49,036 nucleotides of DNA from Desulfarculus sp. (GTDB lineage Bacteria > Desulfobacterota > Desulfarculia > Desulfarculales > Desulfarculaceae), in assembly GCA_016218705.1 (NCBI GenBank), contig JACRDC010000023.1, forward strand, positions 1 to 49,036, written 5' to 3'. Both the position numbers and the translations under genes were made by a program. Below, one piece after another: positions 15,331 to 49,036 of this stretch (position 1 is the stretch's first letter; the number at the start of each line of letters is the position of its first letter). The notes beneath the pieces are model-generated. The model saw only the letters and a program-made list of their open reading frames with translations, ran no database searches and was not told the origin of the DNA.

Positions 15331-15384
15331 CACCCGGCCCCGCGGGGGGCGCGCCTGGCTCCCCTTGTCGCCCGCGACCCGCCA

Positions 15385-15543
15385 TACCAAGTTGCGATCA
15401 AACGAATAGTTTGATCACAACTTGGTATTAGGGCCATGGACGGCCCGCCGGGCGCGTAAGCGCCCGGGAGGCCGGGCAAAACCACGCTTTTGCCCGGCCG
15501 ATCAGCAATCAAAGCCATGGATGGCTTTGATTGCATATTGGTA
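15385..15543. repeat. Hairpin cassette A (four to five consecutive stem-loops)
   Basis: In order: TACCAAGTTGCGATCAAA pairing with its near-complement across a seven-base loop (15385-15427); GGGCC...GGCCC; GGGCGC-GTAA-GCGCCC; GCCGGGCAAAA pairing with TTTTGCCCGGC; and the perfect 13-bp palindrome CAATCAAAGCCAT/ATGGCTTTGATTG (15506-15533). The block starts TACCAA and ends TTGGTA. The first and the GC-rich modules recur in cassette B at 24187. No protein-coding sense is visible. Confidence 0.8.
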
Positions 15544-24160: not shown

Positions 24161-24186
24161 CTCGACGCTTTCATCTGGCTGATTAC

Positions 24187-24435
24187 ATCAAGTTGCGATC
24201 AAAAGAGTAGTTTGATCGCAACTTGATATGCGGGCCAAGAACCACCCCAAAAAAGCCGCGCTTTTTTGGGGACCCCGGTGGATGGCCCGCCGGGCGCGAA
24301 AGCGCCCGGGAGGCCGGGCAAAACCACGTTTTTGCCCGGCCGATAAGCAATCAACGAAGCCACTTCGCGGGCAGGGTATGACCCTGCCCTTGACCAAGGG
24401 GCGCTAAGCGCCCCCTTGGAACCCCAGCAAGCGGC
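24187..24435. repeat. Hairpin cassette B (about seven consecutive stem-loops)
   Basis: In order: a perfect 17-bp stem starting ATCAAGTTGCGATC (24187-24203 with 24211-24227, seven-base loop); CCCCAAAAAAG pairing with CTTTTTTGGGG; GGGCGC-GAAA-GCGCCC; GCCGGGCAAAA pairing with TTTTGCCCGGC; CGAAG...CTTCG; GGGCAGGGT-AT-GACCCTGCCC; and CCAAGGGGCGC pairing with GCGCCCCCTTGG. The first four modules largely match cassette A; the last three match cassette C at 48588. The 3' end forms the C-terminal codons of the small gene at 24404-24598. Confidence 0.85.
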
Positions 24436-28745: not shown

Positions 28746-28786
28746 ATACTATTCCAACAACCATCATAATAGTATTAGGTTGTTGG
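28746..28786. repeat. Two interleaved inverted repeats (mutually exclusive hairpins)
   Basis: ATACTATT (28746-28753) pairs with AATAGTAT (28768-28775), and CCAACAACC (28754-28762) pairs with GGTTGTTGG (28778-28786). The arms alternate, so only one hairpin can form at a time. The first arms are absent from the second copy of the element at 48.7 kb, which keeps only the right half. Confidence 0.7.
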
Positions 28787-28794
28787 CTCTTGAT

Positions 28795-28828
28795 CCGGCC
28801 ATCCTCTGGCCGGCGGGTTTTGCTTTTT
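28795..28828 (+). terminator. Rho-independent terminator downstream of the histidine kinase
   Basis: CCGGCC (28795-28800) and GGCCGG (28808-28813) form a six-bp stem with a seven-base loop, followed by CGGGTTTTGCTTTTT. The equivalent place in copy 2 (48741-48779) keeps the T-run but has a mismatch in the stem. Confidence 0.6.
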
Positions 28829-28843
28829 GGCCGCCCAGGCCCC

Positions 28844-29016
28844 GTGTCCCGCTCTTAGCCCGGCCATTCTTAGGGCACCGGCAGGGGGCTGCCATGATCC
28901 ACCCGGGAAGGGATTCGGGGTCCCTGCGGCCCTGCCCACGCCAAGGCGGAGAGTCCACCCCGCGCCGGCAGCCGCATCGGCAAAGCCAGTATGGCCGGGC
29001 GGCTCTAGCGGGACAC
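28844..29016. ncRNA. Candidate structured RNA / repeat element, copy 1
   Basis: A roughly 173-nt unit is closed by GTGTCCCGCT (28844-28853) with AGCGGGACAC (29007-29016), then GCCCGGCC (28858-28865) with GGCCGGGC (28993-29000). Inside are GGCAGGG with CCCTGCC and a CCCG-10-CGGG stem-loop. A near copy lies at 48794-48968; stems are kept while the ten-base loop differs. Similarity extends outside the closing helix, from about 28763 to 29083, including an AAGAAACC...GGTTTTCTT hairpin. It is placed between the kinase terminator and the TetR promoter, so it is not in the TetR leader. It matches no RNA family I know. It could be a small RNA, a multi-copy repeat or a non-autonomous mobile element; the transcribed strand is not evident. 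Confidence 0.6.
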
Positions 29017-29125
29017 AAAAAGAAACCGCTTAGGTTTTCTTGGGCCGCTGAAACGGTAAGGGTTGTACCCAGGGGAAATACGCCGAAAAACTATACGTCT
29101 GATCTGAAATGCGTAGTAATCGTCC

Positions 29126-48484: not shown

Positions 48485-48587
48485 TTTATTAAATCACATT
48501 TCGTTTATCCATCTTTTGCCTCGGGGCGCTTGGCCCAGGCAACCAGGCCCGCCAGCCCACACAAGGGTCTTCATACCAATTTTATGA

Positions 48588-48676
48588 CAATCAACGAAGC
48601 CACTTCGCGGGCAGGGTATGACCCTGCCCTTGACCAAGGGGCTGCCACGCGCCCCCTTGGAACCCCAGCAATCGGC
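48588..48676. repeat. Hairpin cassette C (three stem-loops)
   Basis: CGAAG...CTTCG, GGGCAGGGT-AT-GACCCTGCCC and CCAAGGGG...CCCCCTTGG, followed by AACCCCAGCAA. It matches the right-hand modules of cassette B (24348-24435) almost base for base except in the last loop (TGCCACGCG against CGCTAAGCG), where the stem is kept. TACCAA at 48574 precedes it, as in cassette A. The structured RNA copy 2 starts about 45 bases later. Confidence 0.85.
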
Positions 48677-48793
48677 AACCCTGGGGCAAGCACCAAGGTA
48701 TAAAAGCATCTAATCATACAGTATTAGGTTGTTGCTCCTTGATCTGGGCATCCTCTGGCCGGTGGGTTTTGCTTTTTTGGCCGCCCAAGCCCC

Positions 48794-48968
48794 GTGTCCC
48801 GCTCTTAGCCCGGCCATTCCTAGGGCACCGGCAGGGGGCTGCTATGATCCAACCCGGCAAAGAATACGGGATACCTGCGGCCCCTGCCCACGCCGGGGCG
48901 GAGAGTCCACCCCGCGCCGGCACCCGCATCGGCAAAGCCAGTATGGCCGGGCGGCTCTAGCGGGACAC
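48794..48968. ncRNA. Candidate structured RNA / repeat element, copy 2
   Basis: The second copy of the element at 28844-29016. Closing helices GTGTCCCGCT/AGCGGGACAC (48794-48803 with 48959-48968) and GCCCGGCC/GGCCGGGC (48808-48815 with 48945-48952) are identical. The internal GGCAGGGG/CCCCTGCC is one pair longer. The CCCG-10-CGGG stem is kept, but its loop reads GCAAAGAATA instead of GGAAGGGATT. CGGGG...CCCCG around GAGAGTCCA is stronger than in copy 1. Similarity begins near AGTATTAGGTTGTTG (48719) and continues to the window edge, so the unit is about 300 nt and may be cut by the edge. Confidence 0.6.
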
Positions 48969-49036
48969 AAAAAGAAACCGCTTAGGCTTTCTTGGGCCGC
49001 CTATACCGTAAGGCCTGTACCCAGAGGAAACCTGAC

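Follow-up and report, generated by a model that had tools for sequence, protein, structure and literature searches.

The MITE family presented below, with its nested and reshuffled hairpin interior, varies on a known kind and can be compared with RUP and BOX (PMC2229807, PMC3049150). RUP, from Streptococcus pneumoniae, is about 107 bp long and occurs in about 108 copies. Its ends resemble those of IS630-Spn1, and its mobilisation in trans has been proposed (PMC2229807, PMC3049150). The BOX elements of streptococci (boxA-boxB(n)-boxC) consist of modules that are present, absent or repeated and that fold on themselves; such small repeats also insert into each other (PMC3049150). In Geobacter uraniireducens, the Chunjie MITE has about 38 complete copies of 178-235 bp and varies in length, according to the portion of its description considered here (PMC10969869). 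Finally, ribosome stalling has been reported for REPs that lie no more than 15 nt from a stop codon (PMC12306157).

The MITE described here is like RUP in size, copy number, IS630-family-like ends and the proposed mobilisation in trans. However, RUP is simple and inserts at TA, whereas this MITE duplicates TNA and has a variable string of hairpins as its interior. BOX, compared by description and not by sequence, is also a composite small repeat with variable modules. In contrast, the loops of hairpins here enclose further hairpins, which can point either way, and one of the modules is found solo behind stop codons as well. Chunjie is likewise a MITE of a delta-type bacterium with length variation, but that portion of its source mentions no modular hairpin cassettes (PMC10969869; compared by description only). 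The REP and BIME sequences of enterobacteria are palindrome mosaics near gene ends, and their stop-proximal position resembles that of the hairpin X presented below. Nevertheless, they differ from a MITE with terminal inverted repeats and target duplications, and from X with its conserved frame, variable stems and tandem units of about 40 bp. The small dispersed repeats of cyanobacteria are very small and insert in one another; their nested tiny hairpins are similar by general description only.

The window, the whole stretch of 49,036 nucleotides analysed, is contig C102 of the MAG G000 (4.21 Mb, 126 contigs). Because a 20-mer specific to the element is also present in a public groundwater MAG named Desulfarculus sp., we assume that the host is Desulfarculus-like and belongs to Desulfarculaceae (Thermodesulfobacteriota). 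Within G000, 1.55 Mb around known copies were read as sequence, and about 60% of the genome was searched by pattern only. The congeneric comparison set was G000-G003, and G006 belongs to another genus of the same family. Four other Thermodesulfobacteriota (G068, G097, G169, G330) were the source of an IS630-family element. We consider it very probable that the cassettes belong to a MITE with IS630-type ends, whose hairpin interior varies and is reshuffled by whole units, with the element C joined to it in copy B and the hairpin X probably acquired.

The three loci of the window and their repeat families

Hairpin cassettes at three loci, A, B and C, had been noticed from the letters alone. The segments and their stems were confirmed at the following coordinates, and A and B, when folded as RNA, proved much more stable than 200 dinucleotide shuffles (z = -11.8 for each).

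15385-15543, + strand: copy A, the MITE in its full base form, 159 bp, TACCAA...TTGGTA, H1-H2-H3-H4-H5, no X; the commonest size class
15384-15428, + strand: A, left-terminal palindrome H1, arms 15384-15403 and 15409-15428
15470-15499, + strand: A, hairpin H4, GGCCGGGCAAAA...TTTTGCCCGGCC
15504-15543, + strand: A, hairpin H5 (AGCAATCAAAGCCAT/ATGGCTTTGATTGC) and right terminal repeat ATATTGGTA
24186-24435, + strand: copy B of the MITE, with an X cassette in H2, no right terminal repeat, and a C unit joined on at the right
24187-24227, + strand: B, H1, 17-bp arms 100% complementary
24230-24290, + strand: B, H2 outer stem GCGGGCCA/TGGCCCGC, X1 within the loop
24243-24277, + strand: B, X1 cassette, CACCCC-AAAAAAGCCGCGCTTTTTT-GGGGACCCCG
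24288-24311, + strand: B, hairpin H3, CCGGGCGC/GCGCCCGG
24312-24341, + strand: B, hairpin H4, 12-bp arms
24347-24434, + strand: B, start of H5 (GCAATCA) running into one C unit of about 80 bp, 95.6% identical to window C over 90 bp
28763-29078, + strand: second copy (core) of repeat R, 90.3% identity over 319 bp
48575-49036, + strand: R, a second MITE-like repeat, interrupted by C near its left end and cut by the contig end; ends TACCAATTTAATG... and ...GAAATGCGTA in other copies
48588-48705, + strand: C, a separate hairpin element, stems GGGCAGGGT/ACCCTGCCC and CCAAGGGG/CCCCTTGG, AATCA on either side

The left part of B has H1, H2, H3, H4 and the start of H5 in common with A. Its right 85-90 bp or so match C, and A and C have only short pieces in common, which agrees with the sharing first perceived. 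The hairpin X1 (CACCCC-AAAAAAGCcgcGCTTTTTT-GGGGACCCCG) is present in B and absent from A, and the left tip of B is mutated (CATCAAG instead of TACCAAG). A, B and C do not represent one repeat in three versions: A is complete, B is without its right end, and C is another repeat family.

A and B both belong to a non-autonomous DNA transposon of high copy number (MITE), whose interior is a string of small palindromes. G000 holds about 118 left ends and about 117 right ends, that is, about 120 copies. The H1 arm pattern had 236 genome-wide matches against 4 in the control. In G000, the right-end pattern had 117 matches against 0, and the H1-H2 junction pattern 118 against 0 for a reversed-pattern control, so the family is no chance resemblance. 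The copies measure 78-324 bp, are dispersed and have no coding capacity, as a MITE should. Terminal inverted repeats are present (TACCAAGTTGCGATC / GATTGCATATTGGTA), and the 18-bp ends of copy A are 83% complementary.

The base form of 159 bp, bounded by TNA on both sides, accounts for 24 of the 72 complete copies. It comprises H1 (TACCAAGTTGCGATCAAAC gagta GTTTGATCGCAACTTGGTAT), H2 (GCGGGCCATGGATGGCCCGC), H3 (CGGGCGCGaaaGCGCCCGG), H4 (GAGGCCGGGCAAAAccacgTTTTTGCCCGGCC) and H5 (GATCAGCAATCAAAGCCATGGATGGCTTTGATTGC), followed by the right terminal repeat. Longer forms carry X1 (AAAAAAGC.GCTTTTTT) or X2 (AAGCAAAC.GTTTGCTT) in the H2 loop, or X3 (ACAAAGC.GCTTTGT) in the H4 loop, in the orientation opposite to X1 and X2. 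Some copies have both loops filled. H5 exists in versions a and b, the H2 interior is inverted in copy C18, and the H1 loop is inverted in 3 of the 67 copies scored. The short forms, of 78-80 and 121 bp, are consistent with deletions that joined short repeats common to H2 and H5 or to H2 and H4; in those of 78-80 bp, the junction lies at the GCCATGGATGGC core common to H2 and H5.

Solo end palindromes of about 45-48 bp (H5- or H1-type), with TACC...GGTA ends, were also observed at C13:24767-24814, C35:1254-1301, C84:404-433 and C6:12215. Their TNA flanks match at C84 and not at C13, C35 and C6. They may be minimal elements or leftovers.

The C hairpin has five matches in G000, and C loci were located at 48588-48705 of the window, C118:21412-21540 and C119:277-483. 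In the window and at C118:21248, C begins after AATCA and stops before AATCA. At C118:21248 it lies within the H5 of a complete MITE whose TCA flanks match. The C of the window splits the left end of R (for comparison, other R copies have GACAATCATACAGTATTAGG), and C119 has two C units one after the other. B shares its H5-C junction with C118:21248, yet it has a single C unit and lacks a right end. Most simply, C would have inserted at AATCA in H5 of B and the right part would then have been lost; recombination at GCAATCAA could also have produced the junction. C itself could be an IS200/IS605-type palindrome element or a MITE that duplicates 5 bp. R is a foldback repeat of about 440 bp, found at more than 30 further places in the stretches of G000 that were read. 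Several of its copies have matching TNA flanks, and it is also a target of the first MITE. Searches of a plasmid collection and of viral contigs gave no match.

Target duplications and IS630-family ends

The 3-bp TNA flanks are identical in 57 of the 72 complete copies (TTA 19, TAA 17, TCA 13, TGA 8), against a mean of 16 and a maximum of 30 in 2000 permutations. The flanks of copy A differ (CCA/CTA), so its target duplication has decayed. Insertions of the MITE into copies of R provide both filled and empty sites. In copy L004, CCATTCTTA is followed by TACC...GGTA and then TTAGGGCACC, and other R copies read CCATTCTTAGGGCACC.

A repeat found in G068, G097 and others has 24-bp ends (TACCAAGTTGC(C/A)ATCTAA(C/T)GAGTA) and lies before or after a frame whose product matches IS630 transposases. 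The ends TACCAAGTTGCCATCTAACGAGTA (G068) and TACCAAGTTGCAATCTAATGAGTA (G097) equal the MITE's left end TACCAAGTTGCGATCAAACGAGTA in 21-22 of 24 bases. This identity includes the gagta that seems to be a mere loop of H1. The proteins of the G068 and G097 elements match the NCBIfam IS630 family (E 1.6e-30) and Pfam DDE_3. The element and its TNA flanks were seen in G068, G097, G169 and G330 (L175, L204, L216, L220, L200, L199). When, in G097, the sequence to the left of L204 is joined to that on the right of L220 (a contig start) and one TCA is removed, a frame is restored that matches a paralogue nearby (NQPVNPA). This restored frame suggests that the two contig ends belong to one insertion.

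The usual target duplication of the IS630 family is TA. The MITE and the related element have TNA, of 3 bp, so we file the MITE as IS630-like in its ends and not as a typical IS630 element. A partner of the IS4/IS5 type (DDE_Tnp_1) was suspected because of the TNA duplication. It was rejected, as G000 has no such transposase gene. Profile matches revealed no DDE_3 gene in the assembled G000 either. The search for an autonomous copy, with paired ends and matching TNA, in the 1.55 Mb of G000 gave no convincing candidate, and the best pairs were known MITE ends. A degenerate DDE_3 match in the congener G002 was set aside, being without matching ends nearby.

Short-read MAGs often lose multi-copy IS genes, and the missing transposase therefore weighs little against a partner of this family. 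As the gene is absent from the MAG itself, mobilisation in trans is what we infer from elements in other genomes: an IS630-family transposase would act, or have acted, at the MITE ends, cutting and inserting at TNA.

Hairpin X behind stop codons and the pairing of stems

X also occurs outside the MITE. The frame CACCCC-N19-GGGGACCCCG, searched with no pairing required, is found at 85 places in G000 with at most one mismatch (control 3), and G001, G003 and G006 have 42 exact occurrences (control 0). There are many different stems, and almost every inner stretch can pair with itself. Solo arrays consist of 1-5 tandem units of about 40 bp and begin 0-5 nt after a same-strand, in-frame stop. In G000, 10 of 15 arrays lie behind frames of at least 150 codons, or 11 of 15 when C26 is included, where an imperfect first unit stands 3 bases past a TAG. 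In G003 the figure is 8 of 12, with two more arrays behind shorter frames. Only 0.9% of random strand positions satisfy the 150-codon threshold. These array counts are to be read knowing that the arrays were partly spotted by eye before counting and their limits set by hand.

Arrays were located at L251, L262, L253, L245, L235 and L248 of G003, and at L268, L273, L276, L278 and contigs C10, C15 and C122 of G000. The stop codon before them is mostly TAG. Four genes carry arrays in both G000 and G003, with proteins 96-99% identical, and one of them also in G001 (95%). In one of these four genes (C15 in G000, L235 in G003), the first-unit stems differ (AAAAAATC/GATTTTTT versus AAAAATCC/GGATTTTT), yet both pair. 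In G006, X is single or in tandem, mostly within an H2-like stem. Another hairpin element (AGAGGAGAAAGCCAT...ATGGCTTTCTCC) was seen with an X unit in its loop, at L243, L254 and L255 of G003 and at L266 and L271 of G000.

Outside the MITE, X is thus a hairpin family of its own, located immediately after stop codons, and it was probably acquired by the MITE. X is probably older than its use by the MITE. By analogy with REPs within 15 nt of stops (PMC12306157), the likely role of solo X would be to influence the end of translation or the ends of mRNA. A further proposal is tentative, and we rate it below an even chance: X might be a new class of 3'-UTR hairpin in Desulfarculaceae. It would have a fixed CACCCC...GGGGACCCCG frame, a stem that varies freely but can almost always pair with itself, and tandem units of about 40 bp that begin 0-5 nt past the stop. 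It would act at the end of translation or transcription, and a transposon would have taken such units into its loops and would now spread them through the genome. No Rfam family fits X.

The stems stay paired across species. Among 18 diverse cores from G000-G003, 95.9% of the cells are paired, and pairing falls to 30-50% when the partner is slid by 1-3 columns. Both sides changed in 12 pairs, compared with 5.7 in shuffles (0 of 500 as high); the rows are related, so no probability is attached to this count. It shows that the stems are maintained, by selection or by template switching within palindromes.

The conserved pairing could mean that the hairpins are kept for a role in RNA (processing, stability or termination) and are not mere passengers of a transposon. 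The position of X units on the coding strand, 0-5 nt 3' of stop codons, speaks for such a role. However, the orientation of the MITE among tandem gene pairs is balanced, with 11 opposite and 10 same (by a rough greedy ORF call, crude at high GC). Rfam gave nothing above the gathering score of any family, and loose thresholds produced only hits far below the cut-off, which we take as chance. Moreover, template switching during replication can also keep palindromes perfect. We regard an RNA role as somewhat unlikely.

Mixing of modules among copies

The sequence-only reading held that module order is constant while single modules are gained or absent, and that loops vary while stems pair. This was borne out genome-wide. 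Among the 72 complete copies, the X state (none, X1 or X2) and H5 version (a or b) occur in all six combinations. X3 was seen with all three X states, but with H5a only. Scoring distinguished 44 haplotypes in these 72 copies, with unscored states counted as states. The four-gamete test in part used single-base loop states, which can recur by mutation. Modules reassort, and the combinations hold in copies with matched target-site duplications (TSD) too. The mixing speaks for copies that exchange modules or that gain and lose them repeatedly, with assembly chimerism as the main caveat. The idea of a modular array assembled by recombination is retained in part: modules reassort among copies, but in B the MITE is fused to C, which is unrelated to it, and this is no exchange of modules within a single family.

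Several steps might have produced this variation. X would have been gained by insertion or template switching within palindromes, and modules would have been lost via deletion at short repeats. Reshuffling between copies would have taken place by recombination or gene conversion.

Apparent mixing would mainly be an artefact if short reads had joined different copies within the repeat. G000 is a metagenome assembly, and many of its contigs begin or finish within a MITE copy. Nevertheless, the duplications on the two sides agree in 79% of the complete copies, where random joins would give about 22%. All six X-by-H5 combinations are present within the 57 TSD-matched copies, and related MAGs likewise hold X-bearing and X-less copies. 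Matching of the TSD limits chimerism, although some of the shuffling inside copies may stem from it. With these results, we judge a mainly artefactual origin improbable.

A comparison with REP elements, and a search for a linked RAYT, had also been suggested. The palindromes, the high copy number, the mosaic make-up and the existence of a Y1_Tnp match in G000 would suit REP/BIME-like arrays mobilised by a RAYT (Y1 transposase). However, this match, the only one in the genome, is a broken fragment made up of two short stretches, one of which contains a stop, and no intact RAYT was found in G000. The MITE has terminal inverted repeats and 3-bp target duplications, has no linked Y1 transposase, and its ends match an IS630-family element instead. 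Single-strand HUH transposition (IS200/IS605, RAYT) is not known to make target duplications. The TNA duplications thus refute mobilisation by a RAYT for the MITE family, where we give it hardly any credence; it is possible for C alone.

The least credible alternative, a single fixed full-length element of which A, B and C are truncations, was checked against copies genome-wide and is refuted for the family as a whole: although the 78-80-bp forms are deletions, A has its own ends and is complete, the units X1, X2 and X3 and both H5 versions occur in many combinations among complete TSD-matched copies, and C is a separate element.

The MITE with IS630-type ends and a reshuffled interior points to a group of IS630-type elements that duplicates TNA and not TA. 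Its many copies also form a large natural collection in which one can follow, copy by copy, how single hairpins of a small mobile element are gained, lost, flipped and exchanged, with the TSD as a check on each copy. The solo X arrays, in turn, make it possible to test directly the idea, put forward for the REP of E. coli, that a hairpin immediately after a stop codon controls translation or the ends of mRNA.
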